Assembly (NCBI GenBank): GCA_018266475.1
Contig: JAFEAI010000254.1
Location: forward strand, 1 to 33,017
Origin: Bacteroidota bacterium
GTDB lineage: Bacteria; Bacteroidota; Bacteroidia; Flavobacteriales_F; PHOS-HE28
Direction of reading: 5' to 3'
Length of the DNA stretch: 33,017 nucleotides
Shown one piece after another: positions 18,684-31,393 of the stretch (position 1 is the first letter of the stretch; every line of letters begins with the position of its first letter). Position numbers and translations under genes: made by a program. The notes below the pieces were generated by a model. It worked only from the letters and a program-made list of their open reading frames with translations. It ran no database searches and was not told where the DNA came from.

Positions 18684-20021
18684 ATGGGCAGAACCCTACC
18701 CCTGTTCCTTAGCCTGCTTTGCTCCTCCCTCGCTTTTGGGCAAGCCGCACGGCTGGTGTTCAACAATGCCGCCGCCACCATGGGCAACCACCCTTGGGTG
18801 GTCTTCAGCCCCACAAGCCCCGGTGCCTACGTGGTGATCGACAACCCCGCCACCACCGGCATCCAGCAATTGGTTACCACGGCCAACGTGCCGGTGATCA
18901 AGAGCGAGCATGAAACGAACAAGCTGCGCTGGGCCACCGGGGCCACGGTAGGCACCTTCGACGTTCCCTTCTCCACCACCAGCGGGGTGGCCATGCCCCT
19001 CAGCGTGAACAAGACCACGGCCGGCGCCGGTGCGGGGTCGATCATCTTCTCCACCTACAACAGCCTGGCCATAAACACTCCTGTGGCCACCGGCTGGGAC
19101 AATGACCTGTACCGCCCCTCGGACGTAACCCACATGCACGACCAGCCCACCGGATCGGTTAACAACTCAGCCAATGCCATCGACCGGTTCTGGATCATCG
19201 ATGCCGGCGAGGCCGGATATGCCTACACCACCAAGCCGGCCGTTACGCTCGCCATCGGCTTCGACCCTGCGGAGAGCGCCATCAACGGCGGCAACTCCCC
19301 GGCCCTTGCGGCCGTGAACGGAAACCTGGTGGCCCAGCGGTTCAATTCCACGCTGAACAAATGGTATGACATTGCCGTGCTGGGCGCCCAAACGGGCAAT
19401 GCCGTGGGTGCGGTAAGCCCCGCCCCGGCGGATTTCTTCCGCAGCTGGACCCTCTCCAACAAGCTGCTGCCCCTGCCGATCCAACTGGCCGCCTGGGGCG
19501 GCGAATGCCAAGGCCGCACCGTGATGCTGAAGTGGGCCACCGCCTCCGAGCAGGACAACCAGTGGTTCACCATTGAGCGCAGCCGCGACGCCCAGGATTG
19601 GGCCGCAGTGGGCACCGTGCCCGGCGCAGGCAACAGCAGCACCATGCTGGAATACAGCTTCGTGGATGCCGATGCCCTGCCCCTGGCCTACTATCGCTTG
19701 CGGCAAACCGACATCAACGGCACCTCCACCGTGAGCGCAACCATTGCCGTGGGCTGCGGCACCGGCGGCGGCACCAGCATCGTGAACGCCTGGGACGAGG
19801 GCGACTACCTGAGCCTGGCCGTCTCCTCCACGCAGGACGGGGTGTACGACCTCACCCTGATGGACGCCCAGGGCAAGGTGATGGCCGTGCAGGCCGCACA
19901 GGCCATCGGCACCGGCATCACCACCCTGCATGTGCCCAAGCGCGGCATCGCCACGGGCATCTACCTGGTGCAACTGCAGAACAGCACCAACAGCATGAGC
20001 CGCAGGGTGCATCTGTGGTAG
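18684..20021 (+). CDS. Secreted protein with T9SS C-terminal sorting domain
   Basis: A 445-residue exported protein. Residues 1-20 are a signal peptide (MGRTLPLFLSLLCSSLAFGQ). The N-terminal half has a repetitive Gly/Asn/Thr-rich beta-type sequence of unknown fold. Residues ~265-350 (LPIQLAAWGGE, VMLKWATASEQDNQWFTIER, YYRLRQTDINGT) form the small beta-sandwich that commonly precedes the sorting domain in Bacteroidota. Residues ~375-445, with YDLTLMDAQGKVM and GIATGIYLVQLQNSTNSM, fit the T9SS sorting domain recognised by the outer-membrane translocon. The start at 18684 is set by the signal peptide. Its last 26 codons are repeated exactly downstream. The role of the mature protein is unknown; surface adhesion is only a guess. 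Confidence 0.85.
   Translation: MGRTLPLFLSLLCSSLAFGQAARLVFNNAAATMGNHPWVVFSPTSPGAYVVIDNPATTGIQQLVTTANVPVIKSEHETNKLRWATGATVGTFDVPFSTTSGVAMPLSVNKTTAGAGAGSIIFSTYNSLAINTPVATGWDNDLYRPSDVTHMHDQPTGSVNNSANAIDRFWIIDAGEAGYAYTTKPAVTLAIGFDPAESAINGGNSPALAAVNGNLVAQRFNSTLNKWYDIAVLGAQTGNAVGAVSPAPADFFRSWTLSNKLLPLPIQLAAWGGECQGRTVMLKWATASEQDNQWFTIERSRDAQDWAAVGTVPGAGNSSTMLEYSFVDADALPLAYYRLRQTDINGTSTVSATIAVGCGTGGGTSIVNAWDEGDYLSLAVSSTQDGVYDLTLMDAQGKVMAVQAAQAIGTGITTLHVPKRGIATGIYLVQLQNSTNSMSRRVHLW
19940..20021 (+). repeat. 82-bp direct repeat, copy 1 (3' end of the T9SS cargo gene)
   Basis: Identical base for base to 20209-20290. It covers the last 26 codons and the stop of the T9SS gene. Sequences diverge immediately on both sides, so the repeat boundary is sharp. 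Confidence 0.95.
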
Positions 20022-20208: not shown

Positions 20209-20290
20209 GCGCGGCATCGCCACGGGCATCTACCTGGTGCAACTGCAGAACAGCACCAACAGCATGAGCCGCAGGGTGCATCTGTGGTAG
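20209..20290 (+). pseudogene. 82-bp direct repeat, copy 2 (orphan end of a T9SS gene)
   Basis: An exact copy of 19940-20021. In the coding frame an in-frame TGA lies at 20195-20197, so this copy is not attached to any open gene: it is a fragment encoding the last 26 residues of a sorting domain. It lies just past the end of lnt on the other strand. Either a recent duplication or deletion, or an assembly artefact at a repeat. Confidence 0.85.
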
Positions 20291-20315: not shown

Positions 20316-21986
20316 TCACCGCCTTCTCCGGACCACCGCGCCCACCCCGGCGGCCAGCAGCAGCAGCAAGGTGCCGGCATAGGCTCCCTTGCCGATGTAG
20401 TCGCCATGGCGCACGTAGAAGGTGAGGTCCCCGCGGGTGCGCACCAGGCCCTTTATGGCGGCGGGCACCCACCAGGCAGTGGCTTGGTGTATGTCGCCGC
20501 GCTGGTCGATAAAGCAGGAAATGCCCGTGTTTGCGCTTCTGGCCACGTCCCGGCGTGTTTCCACGGCGCGCAACTTGCCGTAGAGCAGGTGCTGCTTGTA
20601 GCCCGGGGAGTCGCTCCACCATCCATCGTTGGTCATGATCACGATGAGGTTGGCGCCGTTTCGTACATGGGCCGCCACATGGTCGCCGTAGATGCTTTCG
20701 TAGCAGATGGTGGGGGCGGCGCCCAGCTGGTTGGTGCCGCACCACATCACGGAGCGTTCCTGCTGGGTGCCCAAGCTGCCGGTGGTGCCGCCGAGGTCCA
20801 GGGCAATGCCGCCCAGGGGCCCCAGCACCTGCTCAAAGGGCATCAGTTCCACGCCGGGCACCAGCTTTGATTTGTTGTAGAAACCGAAGCTGCCGTCGCC
20901 GCGCACCAGCAGCGCGGCGTTGTACAGTTCAAAGGCGCGGCCAAGCTGCTTCACCATGCGGGCCGACACGGGCACTTGTGCGCCTGCGGGGAAAAGCCGG
21001 GCGGAGGACATGCCCGCGAGCACGGCCGCCTTGGGCCATGGTGCAAGGAAGGTGCGTATGCGCGCCAGGCTGCGGCTGCCGCCCATGTCGTTTTCCCACA
21101 GGCCATGGAAGGCCAACCGGCCTTGTTCATCGGCCAGCGTGGCGGGCTCCTGGAGGGCCGTCTCCGGCATCACCACCAGTGCGGTGGCGCTATCCATCAG
21201 GGGTGCGGCCTGCGCCAGCATGCGCTCCAGCTGCTCCATGGGGTCGATGGCGCCGAACTTCTCCTTGTACGGGTCGAAGTTGGGCTGCACCAGCACCACC
21301 TGTGCGGCGCGGCCCTGCTCGGTGAAGGTGGCGTAGCGCACCCAGGAGCCGGCCAGCGGCAGGGCGATCACCGCTGCGGCGGCCAGCGCGGGGCGGGTGA
21401 TGCGCCGCCCCGATGGCGCGCCGACGGCCAGGGCCGTGCGCAGCACCAGCAGGTTGGCGGCCCACACCCAGATGCTGCCGCCGAGGTGGCCGGTGACCTC
21501 GTACCACTGCACCCATTGCGTGTGGCCGGCAAATGCATTCCCCAGGGTAAGCCAGGGCCAGCTAAGGTCCCAGTGCATGTGGAAGCGCTCGAAGGCGATC
21601 CAGTACACCGGCAGCGCCCAGCGCGCAGCCGTTCCGCCCAACCCCCTGCGGGTGATGCGGAACAGCAGCCAGGGCACGGACATCACCAGCACGTTGCCCA
21701 CATTGGGGCCGATGAGGGTGAACAGCCGCGTGGCCAGGTGTTCGCTGACGTTGAAGAGCCACCAGGTGGTGGCCAGGTTCCACACCAGCAGGGCGAGCAT
21801 CACGTAGGGCATGAAGTTGCGGGGCCGCTCCGCCTTGGTGCTTCGCGCATAGCGTTCCTCGGCCCACAGCAGGGGCGCCCAGGCGATGAAGATCAGGGGG
21901 GTGAATCCACCTATGGCCGGCCATGCCAAGGCCAGCAGCACGCCGGTGAGCAGGGCACAGCGCAGGTAGAAGGAACGGTTCCGCAT
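20316..21986 (-). CDS. lnt: Apolipoprotein N-acyltransferase Lnt
   Basis: A 556-residue inner membrane enzyme that adds the third acyl chain to lipoproteins. About six to eight hydrophobic segments occupy residues ~8-225, followed by a nitrilase-fold periplasmic domain with the catalytic triad visible: Glu275 in VVMPETAL, Lys372 in YNKSKLVPG, Cys428 in TICYESIYG, plus TNDGWWSDSPGYKQHL and a final membrane helix. In the E. coli enzyme the triad is 267/335/387, so spacing is slightly larger. The ATG at 21986 starts 21 bases after the stop of the C25 peptidase gene, so it is probably co-transcribed with the T9SS pair. Downstream is the orphan 82-bp repeat. Confidence 0.95.
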   Translation of the reverse strand: MRNRSFYLRCALLTGVLLALAWPAIGGFTPLIFIAWAPLLWAEERYARSTKAERPRNFMPYVMLALLVWNLATTWWLFNVSEHLATRLFTLIGPNVGNVLVMSVPWLLFRITRRGLGGTAARWALPVYWIAFERFHMHWDLSWPWLTLGNAFAGHTQWVQWYEVTGHLGGSIWVWAANLLVLRTALAVGAPSGRRITRPALAAAAVIALPLAGSWVRYATFTEQGRAAQVVLVQPNFDPYKEKFGAIDPMEQLERMLAQAAPLMDSATALVVMPETALQEPATLADEQGRLAFHGLWENDMGGSRSLARIRTFLAPWPKAAVLAGMSSARLFPAGAQVPVSARMVKQLGRAFELYNAALLVRGDGSFGFYNKSKLVPGVELMPFEQVLGPLGGIALDLGGTTGSLGTQQERSVMWCGTNQLGAAPTICYESIYGDHVAAHVRNGANLIVIMTNDGWWSDSPGYKQHLLYGKLRAVETRRDVARSANTGISCFIDQRGDIHQATAWWVPAAIKGLVRTRGDLTFYVRHGDYIGKGAYAGTLLLLLAAGVGAVVRRRR

Positions 21987-22007: not shown

Positions 22008-25000
22008 CTAGCGCAGCAGGTACATCTTGCCCATGCCCTTGGTGAAGTAGGAGCCCGCGCCGCCGTCGCGGTGCTCAATGTCCTCGCCATGCAATTGGGC
22101 CATTACGCGGTAGAGGTACACGCCGCGCGCCAGGCGGTCGCCGAACTGGTCGGTGCCGTCCCAGGCGAACTCGGTGACGTTGCGCCCCACGTGCATGGGG
22201 CCCAGCTCGGCCATGGACACCTCGCGCACCACGCGCCCGCTGATGGTCATGATCTGGATGCGCATGGCGCTGGGCGTTTCCCTGCCGGTAAGGGTGAACA
22301 CGAAGCGGGTGCTGGTGGTGAAGGGGTTCGGATAATTGAGCACCTCGGTGAGGGTGGGCTTGTTGATCACCTCGAAGTCCACGCTGTTGTCGCGGTCGCC
22401 GCTGTTGTTGCGGCTCTTGTCACTGGCGCGCACGGTAAGGCGGTACTTGCCGTCCTGCATGAAATTGGGGCGGTAGAACACCTTGCTCACGTTTTGCGGC
22501 CCCGAGGCGGGCACAAACTGCATCACCTCCTGCGCGCCCTGGCGGAAGTAGACGCGCCGCAAGGTGCCCGCCGGGTCGGTGAGGAACACTTTGAAGAGGG
22601 CGGTGTCACCGGGTTCGTTCAGCAGCAGGATCCGGTTCTCATCGTGCAGGGTCACCTGTATCTCGGGCTGTGCGCTCACAATGTCGCCATTGAGGATGTG
22701 GATGCCGTCGAAGGTGACGTCCAGCATGGGGTTTTCGCGGTCCTGCAGGGTAAGGAAGCGCAGCTGCGCGATGTTGTTGAAGTGGAATTGCTCGGGCTGT
22801 GCATACAGCTGGGTAAGGGTGTCGATGGGGTTGGCCTCGATGGTGAGGGCGTTGGGCCCCGGGAAGAGCTGGGTGCTGAAGCGGACGGTATCGCGCAGCA
22901 CGGCGCCCACGGGCAGGGGTGCGTTGCGCTTGTAGTGGATGCGGCGGGTCTGGTTGTTGTGGCCGGTGATCCATGCGGTCATCAGCAGGCTGTCCATGGG
23001 CTGCTGGCCGATGTTGCGCACGGCCACCATCACGGCGGCGTCCTGCCCCTGGTAGAGGCTGTCCACATGCACGTACAGGCCCGATGGCGGGTCTATGGCG
23101 CATTCCGGGGCGGGCGTGCCAATGAGCTGCCAGCGCTTGATCTGTGCGGGCAGGGGGGTGTCGGCGGTATCGTTCCAGAAGGCGCCCTTGAGGCGTAATT
23201 GCGGGTATTGCTGGGCGGTGAGCATGGGCTGCAGGTCCACGTTGCCGGTGTATCCGGCAAGGTCCAGCAAGGGGTGCTCCGTGCCTTGCGGCGATACCCC
23301 GGCGAGCTTCACGCGGGTGCTGTCGTTGGGCTGTTCGGGCCTTATGTCCCAGCTGAGCTGCTCCCAATGGAGGGCCTCATTGCTGCGCGGGGCCTGCATG
23401 GATCCGCTGCGGCTGGTCAGGTGCAGGCTGGCGGTCATGTTGATGAGCGCATCGTGCGCATTGCCCCACACTTCCTGCACGGAGGAGGGATCACCCTTTT
23501 TGCAGAAGAAGATGTAGGGCACGCTGTCGGGCACGGCGCCGCTGGCCAGGTGGGAGGCGCCCAATGCGGCCAGGGCGCCCATGGCATTGGAGGCGGCGAT
23601 GGCGGTGCGGTCCAGCCGCAGGTAGGTGTACACCAGCACGTAGTAGCCGTCCGGAATGCGGTTGTTGAGCATGTAGGCCATGGTGTCCAGCCGCGGATGC
23701 AGGTACCAGAAGACGAAGCTCTTTTCGTTGCGGGACCTGCCGCATGAACCGTTCCTGTTCATTTGGCCGTAATCGTACCCCACGCCGTCGTACAGCGTGA
23801 GCCAGGTGGAGAAGTCGAAGGGGTCCACCACGGCCACGTTGATGGAGGGATAGGGCCCGCATCCGCCGTTCTCCTCGGCGGAAAGGTCCTTGGTCCACCA
23901 GCAGGTCTGGTAGCTGCCGCCCTGCACTTCGCAGCCGATCTGGTGGTCGCCGCCGAAGAACTTGAACTTGCGCTCCGGGCGCACGTGCTTCATCAGGCTG
24001 TAATCATCATCCTTGAACTGGAAGAAGTGGGCCTGGCCCCAGCCCGTGCGGCCGTTGATGTGCTGGAAGGAGGATTCGTGCCAGTTGTAGTGGCCGCCCT
24101 GGCCGAGGCTGTCCAGCGTGCAGCGCCAGAAGAAGACCACGCTGTCGCGGACATTGTTGATGGCATAGATGGAGGAAGGCTGCCATTGCACCACGCCGCC
24201 CGGTGCGCTTACCGTATGCTGCTGCATCAGCGGGCTGTTGTACAGGTCGGTGGTGTCTATCTGGAAGATGTAGTTGCGCAGGGGCGCGAAGGGGTTGCCC
24301 GTGCTGGCGCGCAGCACCGGCGCGGGATCGGGCACGATGGCGAAGTTGTAGGGCTCCACCGGCAACAGGTCGCCGGCATTGATGGTGATGCGCTTGGTGA
24401 CCTTGTTGTTGCCCGTGTCGTCGATCTCCGGGATCAGGTCGGGGTCCAGGTCCAGGCGCACCTGCAGGTCGTTCAGCCCCAGGCCCTGCTGGCCCACGGT
24501 CACGGGGAGCTTGAAGAACACGGTGTCCTGCCAGGCGTTCATGCTTACCTGCTTCACGATGGCGGGCAGCGTGGTGCCCTGGGCCACCAGGGTGCGTTCC
24601 AGCGCCACGGAAAAGGACTGGTGGGTGCCGCGGCCGATGTTGCGGAAGACCACGCGCACCTGGAAGGAATCCAGGTCGGCGGTCACCTGCGCGGGGATCA
24701 GGGCGATATCATCGGCGGTCACCTCCAGGTCGGGCAGGCGGGGCGAGTTCATCACCACGGTAGGGTCGCCGTGCAGGGTCATGGATTCGGCGATGTTTAG
24801 CGATTCGATCCATCCTTGGCTGTTCACCGGAAGGGCCCATCCCCCGGCAAGCTGGTCGATGGCGGCCATGCGCATGTGGCTGCCCACGCCCTTGCCGTAG
24901 TTCACCTGGCCGAAGCTGGTGTAGAACCGGCGTGAAAAGGCGGCCAGGCGGTTGGTGAGGCTGAGGTCGATGGAGGCGATGAAGGCGATGGCGCCCGAAT

Positions 25001-27119
25001 TTTCCGGCAGCACGAACTGCTCGCTGGCGCTGTTGGGCTCGAACTGGTGGATGTTGCCCGTATAGCAGGAATTGCCGAGCATCACGGGGAACTTGCCGTG
25101 CCACTGGTAGTTGGAGGGCACGTCGATGGTGATGTCGAAGCCGCCGCCGTAGGCATGGGCGAAGAAGGTCATCAGCGATACGCCCTTGGAGATCATGTCG
25201 GACACGCTGTCCACGGCGGCCTGCTCGATCACGGCGCCGCCGTTCTTCACGAACTTGGTGACATGGCCGAAGAAGGAGGTGTCCTCGGCGATCACCTTGA
25301 AGCTGGCGAGGGCATTGTCGAACTGGGCATAATCGCTTTGGTTGTTGCCGCCGCGGAAATGGAGGATGTTCTTCATCCACGCGGCCGGAGGCTGGTGTTC
25401 CACGGAATCCACCTTGGCCAGGTAATGCACCACCTGTTCATTGGTTTGGGCGGCCAGGCGGCCCACGGGCACCTGGTAGGAGGCCGGTTGGCTCCCGTTG
25501 AGGTTGATGCTGAAGGAGGCGTCGCTGGAAGGCCAGCCGATGGTGGGCACCAGGCAGGCGGCCGCAGCTCCGGCATCCTGGCGGTAGCCGCGCTGGTAGG
25601 GCAGCGGGTTCAATGCGGTGGCATGCGCCTGTACGGCCTTCCCGATCAGGAAGAGGGCCTTGGGCTTGGTGGGGGCATGGTTGTACACAAAGCGCAGGAA
25701 GTTGCGGATGGCCAACGGGTGCTGCCGCACCCCGCCGCCGAACTGGTCGTACAGTTGCTCCACATCGGCCACCAGGGTGTTGTAGCGGTTGACGGGGCTG
25801 GTTTCACGGTAGGCGGCATATTGCAATGCGCCTTGCATCAGCTTGGGGTGGGTTACGATCACCAAGGCCGAATCGGGCAGGTTGGCCATGGGGTCGGTGA
25901 AGGTTCCGGTGCCGTTCACCGGCGTGATCGTTCCCACCGGCAGGATGGCGGCCGCAGTGGCCACCACCACGCGCATGTCCTGTGCGTTCGGCGGCAGCAC
26001 GGCCTTGTAGCCATTGCCTTCCTGGGCCGGCAGCACGCGACTTAGGCCGGCCGGCCCCCAGGCGTAGAGCACCGGGCCCGCCGAGGCCAGGAAGGCGACC
26101 GTGGAGGAATCCGGTGCGGCACTGCCGGGCAGTTCCACGTCGGCGCGGTCGCCGAAGTTGAAATTCCGCGCATAGCGCAGGCTTTGCCACGCCGGTGCCG
26201 AGACATCGGGGTAGTCGGGCGCCAGTCCATTGCATGCCAGGTCGTGTATCACCCGTGCGGTGATGTTGAGCCCCCCCGCTGCATAGCTGGCCACGGGGCG
26301 GTCGAAGCCGAGCTTCAGCAGGGCATAGCCGAGGAACACGGTATCGGCAAGCACGGCGGGGCCGTGCTCCAGGCGGATGTGGTGGTCGACGCAGTTCCAT
26401 CCGCCCGGATTGTTCAGGCTGGCCAGCACCATGTTGTAGCGCGCCGGTGGCGCGTCCGCCCCGGCATACAGTTCCGGCGCGGCCAGGTAGAAGGCGATGG
26501 AGCCGTCCGCGCCTTCACCCTTGATCAGTTCCTGGAACGCATAGTAGCCCTCCGCCTCGCTGACGAATGCCGTGGAAATGCCCTCCGGGGTGCGCTTGCC
26601 GCTTTGGTAGCCCACGGGATAGGTGAGCAGCGTGGTTCCCCAGCACCAGGGCTGCACCGCATGTGCGGCCCAGTTGCCGCTAGCGGAGGGGATGGTGCGC
26701 AGGGCCTCGCCCACGGGGCCCCAGGTGAGGTAATAGCGGATGGTGTCGTTGTAGAGCGAATAAAAGGGATTGTTGATGTGGGCGGGATCGTCCCACAGGG
26801 TGCTGTCCATCCATGCGTCGTTCTTGGCGCCGTAGAACTCGATGAAGTCGCCATTGTTGAACACGCCGTCCTGGGCGCCCTCCACGTGGATGGGCACCTG
26901 CCGGCCGCGCGCATAGAGCTGGAGGGTGCGCGGGTCCACGCTTTGCAGGGGAAGGTGCGCGGCGGCCAGTGCGGCGGAATCGATGCGGTACACGCCGTTC
27001 TGCCACACCTTGAAGGACCAGTACTGGCGGTCGTAGTGGATCCACTCGTTGCCGTAGGGCTGCGCCAAGGCGTGCAGGGCGGAGGCCAGCAGGGCGGCAA
27101 GGAGCAGCAATTTCCTCAT
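22008..27119 (-). CDS. Giant C25 (gingipain-type) cysteine peptidase with T9SS sorting domain
   Basis: A 1703-residue exported protein. Signal peptide 1-19 (ending LHALA); a beta-rich N-terminal part; C25 peptidase core at ~415-780 with likely catalytic His655 (FFAHAYGGGFD) and Cys685 (GNSCYTGN), 30 residues apart as in gingipains; a CARDB-like domain from ~790; a Cys-rich segment and a region at ~1093-1218 that resembles FAM3/ILEI domains; a second CARDB-like domain; an Ig-like part; and a FlgD/T9SS-type C-terminus from NYPNPF (1595-1600). The true PorU sortase is a shorter C25 protein, so this may be a PorU paralogue or a surface protease. The ATG at 27119 overlaps the PorV-like stop (ATGA); the longer frame upstream is shadow sequence. 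Confidence 0.85.
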   Translation of the reverse strand: MRKLLLLAALLASALHALAQPYGNEWIHYDRQYWSFKVWQNGVYRIDSAALAAAHLPLQSVDPRTLQLYARGRQVPIHVEGAQDGVFNNGDFIEFYGAKNDAWMDSTLWDDPAHINNPFYSLYNDTIRYYLTWGPVGEALRTIPSASGNWAAHAVQPWCWGTTLLTYPVGYQSGKRTPEGISTAFVSEAEGYYAFQELIKGEGADGSIAFYLAAPELYAGADAPPARYNMVLASLNNPGGWNCVDHHIRLEHGPAVLADTVFLGYALLKLGFDRPVASYAAGGLNITARVIHDLACNGLAPDYPDVSAPAWQSLRYARNFNFGDRADVELPGSAAPDSSTVAFLASAGPVLYAWGPAGLSRVLPAQEGNGYKAVLPPNAQDMRVVVATAAAILPVGTITPVNGTGTFTDPMANLPDSALVIVTHPKLMQGALQYAAYRETSPVNRYNTLVADVEQLYDQFGGGVRQHPLAIRNFLRFVYNHAPTKPKALFLIGKAVQAHATALNPLPYQRGYRQDAGAAAACLVPTIGWPSSDASFSINLNGSQPASYQVPVGRLAAQTNEQVVHYLAKVDSVEHQPPAAWMKNILHFRGGNNQSDYAQFDNALASFKVIAEDTSFFGHVTKFVKNGGAVIEQAAVDSVSDMISKGVSLMTFFAHAYGGGFDITIDVPSNYQWHGKFPVMLGNSCYTGNIHQFEPNSASEQFVLPENSGAIAFIASIDLSLTNRLAAFSRRFYTSFGQVNYGKGVGSHMRMAAIDQLAGGWALPVNSQGWIESLNIAESMTLHGDPTVVMNSPRLPDLEVTADDIALIPAQVTADLDSFQVRVVFRNIGRGTHQSFSVALERTLVAQGTTLPAIVKQVSMNAWQDTVFFKLPVTVGQQGLGLNDLQVRLDLDPDLIPEIDDTGNNKVTKRITINAGDLLPVEPYNFAIVPDPAPVLRASTGNPFAPLRNYIFQIDTTDLYNSPLMQQHTVSAPGGVVQWQPSSIYAINNVRDSVVFFWRCTLDSLGQGGHYNWHESSFQHINGRTGWGQAHFFQFKDDDYSLMKHVRPERKFKFFGGDHQIGCEVQGGSYQTCWWTKDLSAEENGGCGPYPSINVAVVDPFDFSTWLTLYDGVGYDYGQMNRNGSCGRSRNEKSFVFWYLHPRLDTMAYMLNNRIPDGYYVLVYTYLRLDRTAIAASNAMGALAALGASHLASGAVPDSVPYIFFCKKGDPSSVQEVWGNAHDALINMTASLHLTSRSGSMQAPRSNEALHWEQLSWDIRPEQPNDSTRVKLAGVSPQGTEHPLLDLAGYTGNVDLQPMLTAQQYPQLRLKGAFWNDTADTPLPAQIKRWQLIGTPAPECAIDPPSGLYVHVDSLYQGQDAAVMVAVRNIGQQPMDSLLMTAWITGHNNQTRRIHYKRNAPLPVGAVLRDTVRFSTQLFPGPNALTIEANPIDTLTQLYAQPEQFHFNNIAQLRFLTLQDRENPMLDVTFDGIHILNGDIVSAQPEIQVTLHDENRILLLNEPGDTALFKVFLTDPAGTLRRVYFRQGAQEVMQFVPASGPQNVSKVFYRPNFMQDGKYRLTVRASDKSRNNSGDRDNSVDFEVINKPTLTEVLNYPNPFTTSTRFVFTLTGRETPSAMRIQIMTISGRVVREVSMAELGPMHVGRNVTEFAWDGTDQFGDRLARGVYLYRVMAQLHGEDIEHRDGGAGSYFTKGMGKMYLLR

Positions 27120-28198
27120 GAACGGTTGTGCTTGTACAGGTCGAAGCGGAGGGAGAACACGTTGGAATAGAGGGCTACGCCGCCATCGCCGATGTTGGTG
27201 AGGGCATAGTCCAGCGCCACGCTCTTTATTTTCAGGCCCACGCCGATGTTGGGCTGGAAGTTCAGGGACCGCTTGTCCTTGATGTCCGTAACGTACTGGA
27301 AGTTGTTCACCCCGGCGCGGAGGAACACCACGCGGGCATAGCCCACCTCCAGCCCCAGGCGGGGGTCGCCGCTCCAGGTGGAAGTGGCCAACAGGGTGTT
27401 CCGTTTGCGGTCGAAGGTGTTTTCCAGGTTGGCCTCCGCCAGGATGTCCACCTTGCTTCCCGCCTTGAACTGGCGGGCCACCCCGAGCACTAAGCGCGGC
27501 AGGGTGACCTCCACGCCGTTCACGGGCAGCTCGTTGCCGGTGCGCGCGAACACGTCCTTGGTGCGCTGCTCCAGCGAATAGCTCCAGGCGTTGAAGGTGC
27601 CGGTGATGTCGCGCCCCACGGCCGCAAAGCGCCACGGCCCGCGGTCGTACTGCAGGCCCGCGTCCAGGCCGAAGCCCCAGGCGTGCGCGAAGGGCCCCAC
27701 GCTGCGGTACACCACCTTGGCGTTGGCGCCGACGCGCAGGCCGGGCACCTTCAGCTTGCGGGCATAGCTGATCAGGAAGGCGTTGTCGGTGGCGGAAAAG
27801 CTGGTGATTCGGTTGTAGTCCAGGTTGCCGTTGTTGTCGATCAGCTCGGTGGTGTTGGGGATGTTGTCCACCCCGAAACGGATGTAGGAGATGCCGATGA
27901 CACTGGCCGAATCGATGGGCTTGGCCACGGCGAGGTAATCGTATTTGGCGATGCCCGCGAAGTATTCGCTGTGCATGGCGCCCACCTGCAGGTCACCGCG
28001 CACGCCCAGCAGGCCGGCGGGGTTCCAGTAGCCCGCGGTAACGTCGTTGGTGGCCGCCACCTGCGAATAGCCCATGCCCAAGGAGCGTGCGCCCACACCG
28101 ATGCTGAGGAACTCGTTGCTGTACTTGGGCGCGTCCTGGGCCTGCACCCATGCGAACGATAAAACGGCCACCATTGCGGCCATCCCCCGGCTGTTCAT
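27116..28198 (-). CDS. PorV/PorQ family outer-membrane beta-barrel protein
   Basis: A 360-residue protein with a signal peptide (1-21, ending WVQAQ) and a beta-barrel sequence of FadL type. The N-terminal FLSIGVGARSLGMGYSQVA followed by TAGYWNPAGLLGV is the hallmark of PorV/PorQ proteins, which shuttle T9SS cargo from the translocon to the PorU sortase. It overlaps the C25 peptidase start by four bases, the same neighbourhood as porV and porU in several Bacteroidota. Whether it is PorV itself, PorQ or a dedicated paralogue cannot be told from this window. A start at 28216 (MSAVGR) is possible. It is transcribed away from pssA across a 94-bp gap. Confidence 0.88.
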   Translation of the reverse strand: MNSRGMAAMVAVLSFAWVQAQDAPKYSNEFLSIGVGARSLGMGYSQVAATNDVTAGYWNPAGLLGVRGDLQVGAMHSEYFAGIAKYDYLAVAKPIDSASVIGISYIRFGVDNIPNTTELIDNNGNLDYNRITSFSATDNAFLISYARKLKVPGLRVGANAKVVYRSVGPFAHAWGFGLDAGLQYDRGPWRFAAVGRDITGTFNAWSYSLEQRTKDVFARTGNELPVNGVEVTLPRLVLGVARQFKAGSKVDILAEANLENTFDRKRNTLLATSTWSGDPRLGLEVGYARVVFLRAGVNNFQYVTDIKDKRSLNFQPNIGVGLKIKSVALDYALTNIGDGGVALYSNVFSLRFDLYKHNRS

Positions 28199-29281: not shown

Positions 29282-29357
29282 TTGCGGGTTGTCGCTGGGC
29301 AACAAAGAGCGGTACTCCGTACGTGCCTTCCGCCCGAGGAGTTGAAGGGCCATCCCC

Positions 29358-29507
29358 CACTGCCCACTGCCAACTGCCCACTGCCAACTGCCCTCTGCCC
29401 ACTGCCCACTGCCCACTGCCCACTGCCCACTGCCCACTGCCCCACTGCCCCCTGCCCCCTGCCCCCTGCCCACTGCCAACTGCCCACTGACAACTGACAA
29501 CTGCCAA
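29358..29507. repeat. Heptanucleotide tandem repeat (CACTGCC and variants)
   Basis: About twenty units of CACTGCC and near variants (AACTGCC, CTCTGCC, CCCTGCC, then CACTGACAA) fill the gap between purS and the LRR gene. Six perfect units run from 29400 to 29441. The period of seven shifts frame at each unit. The open frames across it are products of the repeat. Such heptamer repeats are known in bacterial intergenic DNA and change length by slippage. The remaining bases of the 244-bp gap hold no gene. Confidence 0.95.
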
Positions 29508-31075: not shown

Positions 31076-31169
31076 GGCTGCGAAGGCGCGAAGATGGCTA
31101 TGGACAGGACCGAAATGCAAAACTCGTTCGTGCGTGCGGCCGGGAAGTGCTTGGTGGGCGGCCCTACAG

Positions 31170-31393
31170 GATGCGGACAGGATTGCAGGATGAGCAGGAT
31201 GTGGCCGCGCGGGGCGGGATGCGGGGGACAGGATTGCAGGATGAACAGGATGTGGCCGCGTGGGGCGGGATGCGGACAGGATTGCAGGATGAATAGGATG
31301 TGGCCGCGTGGAGCGGGATGCGGACAGGATTGCAGGATGAACAGGATGTGGCCGCGTGGGGTGGGATGCGGGGGATTGGAATTCACAGGATGG
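31170..31393. repeat. 48-bp tandem repeat, four copies plus a partial fifth
   Basis: Units run 31170-31217 (48 bp), 31218-31268 (51 bp), 31269-31316 (48), 31317-31364 (48) and a degraded piece to about 31393. Each holds an inner motif of three GGAT words with ACAGGATTGCAGGATGAACA, then GTGGCCGCG. All full units are multiples of three, so several frames stay open and give spurious proteins on both strands. Repeats built on ACAGGAT-GCAGGATGA are seen between genes in many bacteria. It lies in the 507-bp divergent gap between ribF and atpD, which otherwise shows only the atpD promoter. Confidence 0.95.

Follow-up and report, generated by a model that had tools for sequence, protein, structure and literature searches.

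A divergent FAM3/ILEI-fold domain in PorU2, a putative type IX secretion system sortase of Bacteroidota

Introduction

Does a gingipain-type cysteine peptidase from a Bacteroidota bacterium contain a domain of the kind found in animal FAM3 proteins, and if so, what might the domain do there? The question arises from a 33,017-nt contig (JAFEAI010000254.1 of assembly GCA_018266475.1), here termed the window, in which motifs like those of FAM3 proteins had been noticed within one long open reading frame. We take the family described by Pfam PF15711 (the ILEI or GG domain) to comprise FAM3A-D, the stem of POMGnT1, CEMIP/TMEM2 and phage tail fibres. The POMGnT1 stem recognises beta-linked GlcNAc through Arg129, Asp179 and Arg207, and FAM3C also binds GlcNAc; the molecular mechanism of FAM3 proteins in animals is described as unclear (PMC9802357). 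Phage domains termed CBM_1 retain the equivalents of Arg129 and Asp179 (PMC9437275). We describe the identity of the window domain, its distribution among Bacteroidota and its proposed role.

Results

The gene and its neighbourhood

The NCBIfam model NF052324 files the open reading frame at 22008-27119 as 'putative type IX secretion system sortase PorU2' (type IX secretion system, T9SS). The features first needed are as follows.

22008..27119, minus strand: porU2 gene, 1703 aa; NF052324 (PorU_rel_Nterm), 600 bits against a cut-off of 450
27060..27119, minus strand: Sec signal peptide, residues ~1-20 (MRKLLLLAALLASALHALAQ), read from the sequence
24405..27110, minus strand: PorU2 N-terminal region including the catalytic domain, residues 4-905; NF052324
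24753..25862, minus strand: Peptidase_C25 (gingipain-type) domain, residues 420-789; PF01364, E 3.3e-53
25155-25157, minus strand: His655, within Peptidase_C25, invariant in 11 homologs
25065-25067, minus strand: Cys685, within Peptidase_C25, invariant in 11 homologs
24567..24734, minus strand: CARDB-like Ig domain, residues 796-851, directly after C25; weak PF07705 match, E 0.046
22095..22313, minus strand: FlgD_ig / T9SS CTD-like C-terminal domain, residues 1603-1675; PF13860, E 1.1e-5
27116..28156, minus strand: porV2, putative T9SS sorting/shuttle beta-barrel; NF052325, 492.3 bits against a cut-off of 325

The ATG at 27119 is the likely porU2 start; a signal peptide, read from the sequence, comes next, and the alternative longer frame, opening with a GTG at 27635, runs into the PorV2 gene. 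The C25 core named in the original prediction is certain (E 3e-53), and His655 and Cys685, which we take as catalytic from knowledge of the C25 family, are probably its catalytic pair. The same prediction linked the core to CARDB domains. In the window protein this match stays below threshold (14.4 bits against a PF07705 cut-off of 22.7), but in L119, a full-length homolog collinear with it at 30% identity, CARDB scores 26.3 bits, above the cut-off, at the aligned position and again directly after C25. At the C-terminus PF13860 gives 25.7 bits, slightly short of its 27-bit cut-off, and the C-terminal part of the PorU model NF033707 matches residues 1457-1675. NF052324 spans the N-terminal half of PorU2 only, so that the FAM3-fold domain lies outside the model. 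The sortase (transpeptidase) role of PorU2 is putative, as its name has it.

The PorV-type partner adjoins porU2: the porV2 stop codon and the porU2 start share the sequence ATGA, with porV2 upstream, which suggests translational coupling. Elsewhere the genome encodes a canonical PorU (1226 bits) adjoining a PorV-family gene, a PorZ (608 bits) and additional members of the PorV family, which makes PorU2/PorV2 a second pair that runs parallel to the canonical PorU set. Among 34 genomes with a PorU2 over its cut-off, PorV2 lies 27-157 nt directly upstream in 21, and 13 have no adjacent PorV2 match above cut-off.

Several other features of the window were noted. Immediately downstream of porU2, in the same orientation, is the apolipoprotein N-acyltransferase gene lnt (20316-21986). 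In an exact 82-nt direct repeat (19940-20021 and 20209-20290), the 3' end of a T9SS type A cargo gene, stop codon included, recurs 269 nt downstream. Two tandem arrays are also present, one of ~21 copies of the heptamer CCCACTG (29356-29505), upstream of the PorV2 gene region, and one of 4.2 copies of a 48-nt unit (31169-31371).

Identity of the FAM3-like domain

The domain under study is the following.

23412..23954, minus strand: FAM3/ILEI-fold (GG) domain, residues ~1056-1236; PF15711, AlphaFold2/Foldseek and profile-profile comparison

All of the motifs that first drew attention to it are present: INVAVVDP (residues 1093-1100), YDGVGYDYG (1110-1118), IPDGYYVLVYTY (1155-1166), LAALGAS (1183-1189), VPYIFFCKKGD (1200-1210) and EVWGN (1216-1220). 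The profile search that the original prediction proposed gave a divided answer. PF15711 is the sole Pfam match of the isolated region, and the alignment spans positions 3-89 of the 90 in the profile; at E 0.019-0.031 (15.2-15.9 bits), however, the match falls under the curated 27-bit cut-off and is by itself not enough to establish identity. ILEI is absent from a Pfam scan of the whole window protein, and a PF15711 search of its own genome at E<=1e-3 gave no match, which cautions that this clade escapes the curated profile. Individual orthologs matched PF15711 in 16 of 30 cases at E up to 1, the best at 7.7e-5.

The proposed structure prediction came out clearly on the side of FAM3. An AlphaFold2 model of the domain, built from 30 orthologs (pLDDT 89.3, pTM 0.85), has the FAM3 beta-beta-alpha fold by Foldseek. 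Its top 21 matches in the PDB are all FAM3C, the N-terminal stem domain of POMGnT1, FAM3B, FAM3A or TMEM2 (E 9e-7 to 3e-3, probability 1.00; TM up to 0.61 by query and 0.73 by target), and the next match has a probability of 0.20, so that significant matches are of FAM3 type only. Sequence identity to the FAM3 structures is 10-16%. In a viral structure library, the top matches include tail fibres, long-tail-fibre hinge connectors and phage proteins that bear the name 'interleukin-like EMT inducer'.

For comparison of profiles we used 29 strong PF15711 domains from other Bacteroidota (profile A2), which finds FAM3B (1e-24), FAM3C (2.5e-24), POMGnT1 (5.6e-21) and TMEM2 (7e-17), as well as FAM3A, among PDB sequences. 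The window clade aligns to A2 with a probability of 95.4% (E 1.7e-8, score 56.7), against at most 2.3% and a score of at most 20.3 for 60 column shuffles and 0.1% for the reversed alignment. In a sliding comparison along the full PorU2 alignment, the FAM3-like segment reaches 93-98% and the rest of the protein at most 0.5%. PDB sequences searched by phmmer and by the window-clade profile returned nothing relevant, and the link to the PDB members came via the fold and the bridging family A2 only; a tblastn search in phages gave no match.

Homologous proteins close the gap. L119 is above the curated cut-offs for C25, CARDB, ILEI and FlgD_ig, in the same order as in the window protein, and PF15711 is over its cut-off in L119 (32.2 bits), L106 (46.1 bits) and L100 (80.1 bits). 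In L100 and L102, from more distant Bacteroidota, the order is C25, ILEI (80 and 74 bits), CARDB, all above cut-off.

By fold, by profile-profile homology and by these bridging proteins, residues ~1056-1236 are, with very little doubt, a divergent FAM3/ILEI domain of POMGnT1-stem-like type, as originally predicted. That the resemblance is a chance pattern of motifs might be argued from the single-sequence Pfam match beneath cut-off (E 0.019); the fold match, the profile comparison with its shuffle, reversal and same-protein controls, and the above-cut-off homologs refute this, leaving it a negligible probability.

Distribution and architecture

PF15711 matches occur in 105 of 393 Bacteroidota genomes and NF052324 matches, many under the model's cut-off, in 280. 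Among the matches listed, at least 85 of 113 for PF15711 follow a co-oriented NF052324 match, at a distance of at least 493 nt downstream (median 529, 90th percentile 630). The FAM3-fold domain is thus general in Bacteroidota and in most cases stands at a nearly fixed distance past the PorU2 catalytic region. Seven further matches among those listed lie 64-190 nt upstream of the NF052324-matched part, so that in some families the domain precedes C25 or is present both before and after it, as in genomes G390, G396 and G369. This alternative architecture, with ILEI before the C25 catalytic core or flanking it on both sides, was also noted in L107, L109 and G396/G369.

Twenty-one PF15711 matches are unpaired among the NF052324 matches listed. 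At least four of these are chance hits, and others are C25 proteins whose NF052324 match lies outside that list, for example L101 and L106. Sub-threshold matches rejected as due to chance were those in short frames of genomes of the same class (L114, L115, L118) and one in a type I restriction methylase-like protein (L117). A separate 585-aa protein (L116:2494-4248) has ILEI (78.7 bits) ahead of a phosphatidylserine decarboxylase-like domain (149.6 bits).

Closer to the window, the domain region is carried by 42 of 45 genomes of the order, and a search of the class with a window-type profile detects the domain in 112 of its 197 genomes. A single-sequence search of genome contigs found no relative, where a profile search found 41. 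The closest named records are metagenome-assembled Flavobacteriales, and some isolate names suggest activated sludge. The suggested survey of C25 proteins thus finds the same domain order recurring across Bacteroidota, mostly in PorU2-type proteins, and the expectation of an 'unusual surface protein' gives way to a common architecture that NCBI files as PorU2.

Stand-alone proteins

Stand-alone proteins, 299-318 aa long, are encoded in three genomes of the class (L111:2049-3002, L112:1856-2788 and L113:2012-2908). Each begins with a signal-like stretch and contains a FAM3-like domain of the window type (E 1e-33 to 2e-31). In two of the three the C-terminus is a clear type A sorting domain of the T9SS (TIGR04183, 47 and 40 bits). 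The window-type domain therefore appears to travel also as secreted T9SS cargo.

Sugar-contact residues

We identified the contact triad in POMGnT1 from the intervals between its residues, which are the expected 50 and 78, and then read the corresponding alignment columns. Asp179 and Arg207 are each conserved in 28 of the 29 A2 sequences and Arg129 in 15. In the window clade Asp179 and Arg207 are each found in 0 of 30; the Asp179 alignment is the less certain, with gaps nearby, and Arg207, next to a conserved K-G, is firmer. Further sequences of the class give 0 of 21 for both residues (22 were read, and L079 was excluded as read from another part of the protein). For Arg129 the column is uncertain in the window clade, where 5 of 30 sequences show Arg in it. 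The triad is accordingly not retained in the window clade, which has an insertion instead.

23676..23819, minus strand: clade-specific insertion in the FAM3-like domain, roughly residues 1101-1148; alignments with A2 and animal members

The insertion carries the conserved Trp1106 and Cys1126, and Cys1087 lies shortly ahead of it. Residues invariant or nearly so in the window clade are Cys1087, Asp1099, Trp1106, Cys1126, Pro1156, Gly1187, Lys1208 and Gly1209. With Asp179 and Arg207 gone, the residues lend no support to sugar binding in this clade, and we regard a sugar ligand here as possible rather than probable. Preservation of the contact residues in most distant members, for its part, favours glycan recognition as the ancestral activity.

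Discussion

We propose that the FAM3-fold domain is an accessory recognition domain of the PorU2 transpeptidase, a role we consider reasonably probable. PorU2 would be secreted by the T9SS and would dock at the outer surface on PorV2; the His655/Cys685 pair would cleave the C-terminal signal of a subset of cargo, and PorU2 would join the cleaved cargo to a surface acceptor. The FAM3-fold domain would recognise, in cis, the acceptor or a glycan on the cargo, the part played in P. gingivalis by a separate protein, PorZ, which binds the glycan acceptor A-LPS and delivers it to PorU (PMC8545088). The ancestral sugar site, whose D179/R207 part is retained in most distant PorU2-type proteins, would have been replaced in the window clade, so that the site there, once remodelled, probably binds another glycan or a partner protein. 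What the computation shows is the fold, the architecture, the partner gene and the residue patterns, from which sortase activity, sugar binding and a part in acceptor choice are inferred. As the best explanation overall, a cis recognition module of the second T9SS sortase, ancestrally glycan-binding and with its ligand changed here, has about an even chance of being right. The most specific form, in which the sortase chooses the glycan of its cargo by a built-in FAM3-type lectin, the fold is an old prokaryotic glycan recogniser, and in the window clade the site was rebuilt and the domain released as cargo, is unlikely to hold in all its parts.

Several observations count against this explanation. 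D179 and R207 are lost in the window clade, as described above, and the 13 genomes already mentioned lack an adjacent over-cut-off PorV2. PorZ, moreover, is encoded in the window genome too, which by default leaves no need for another part that recognises glycans. Alternatively, the domain may no longer bind sugar in this clade and may have a structural or docking role, in contact with PorV2, the catalytic domain or the CTD of cargo; its additional conserved Cys, Trp and Pro residues would then stabilise it or form that interface. Such a module fits the disappearance of the sugar-contact residues alongside conservation of a new set, but the same divergent domain stands alone in the secreted, T9SS-cargo-like proteins L111-L113, which have no sortase to dock on, and this favours an autonomous binding function. 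We rate docking as conceivable, if somewhat improbable.

A rather small probability falls to PorU2 being a surface protease, with the domain as a carbohydrate-binding module that targets it to substrate or surface. C25 does include true proteases, the gingipains, secreted hydrolases commonly have carbohydrate-binding modules, and the fold is found in phage tail and adhesion proteins (PMC9437275); however, the protein matches the PorU-type sortase models (NF052324 at 600 bits, NF033707 at the C-terminus), ends in a PorU-like domain and is paired with a PorV-type shuttle. The original prediction had also pointed to the cytokine-like setting of the domain in animals, which is not the best functional guide: sugar binding is known or proposed for those members of the fold that are better understood, namely the POMGnT1 stem, FAM3C and phage adhesion modules, and the known sugar-contact residues are lost here. 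Imitation of FAM3 cytokines, acting on host cells, would explain the fold shared with FAM3C/ILEI, but homologs in many Bacteroidota, a fixed place in a cell-surface sorting enzyme, closest named records from metagenome-assembled Flavobacteriales (with the hints of activated sludge), and 10-16% identity to FAM3 structures with no sign of recent transfer from animals all speak against it. We reject this role as unsupported and very improbable.

The preferred reading, a recognition domain within PorU2, yields a concrete, testable hypothesis, namely that a widespread, uncharacterised second T9SS sortase carries its own acceptor-recognition domain. Were the lectin-sortase form of it true, the FAM3/POMGnT1 fold would be an old prokaryotic domain for recognition of surface glycans, kin to the animal FAM3 'cytokine' domain. 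Pfam and UniProt naming already recognise the ILEI domain in bacteria and phages. The literature searched contained nothing relevant on PorU2, PorV2, PF15711 or the ILEI domain in bacteria, and the regular place of the domain in PorU2 and its divergent, triad-less subfamily appear to be undescribed there.

Among known systems, the window protein agrees with PorU2 as modelled by NF052324 in its 600-bit match over residues 4-905, its conserved His/Cys pair and its PorV2 (NF052325) partner; it differs in that the NCBI model, an N-terminal half, is without the FAM3-fold domain. With the ILEI/GG family (PF15711) the window domain shares the predicted fold, the succession of strands and helices, the K-G motif and coverage of positions 3-89 in the 90-position profile, whereas it scores below cut-off, has lost D179/R207, sits in a sortase and contains several tens of inserted residues, conserved Cys and Trp among them. 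The PorU/PorZ complex of P. gingivalis is likewise a C25 sortase with a CTD-like C-terminal domain and a PorV-family partner, but glycan recognition there belongs to a separate beta-propeller protein, PorZ; in the canonical PorU of the window genome a FAM3-fold domain was not detected. The CBM_1 adhesion modules of Streptococcus phages, POMGnT1-stem-like and proposed to be carbohydrate-binding, are another prokaryotic use of the fold, although they sit in phage tails with no sortase and retain the R129/D179 equivalents. With PorU2, the FAM3 fold becomes a regular part of bacterial surface machinery.
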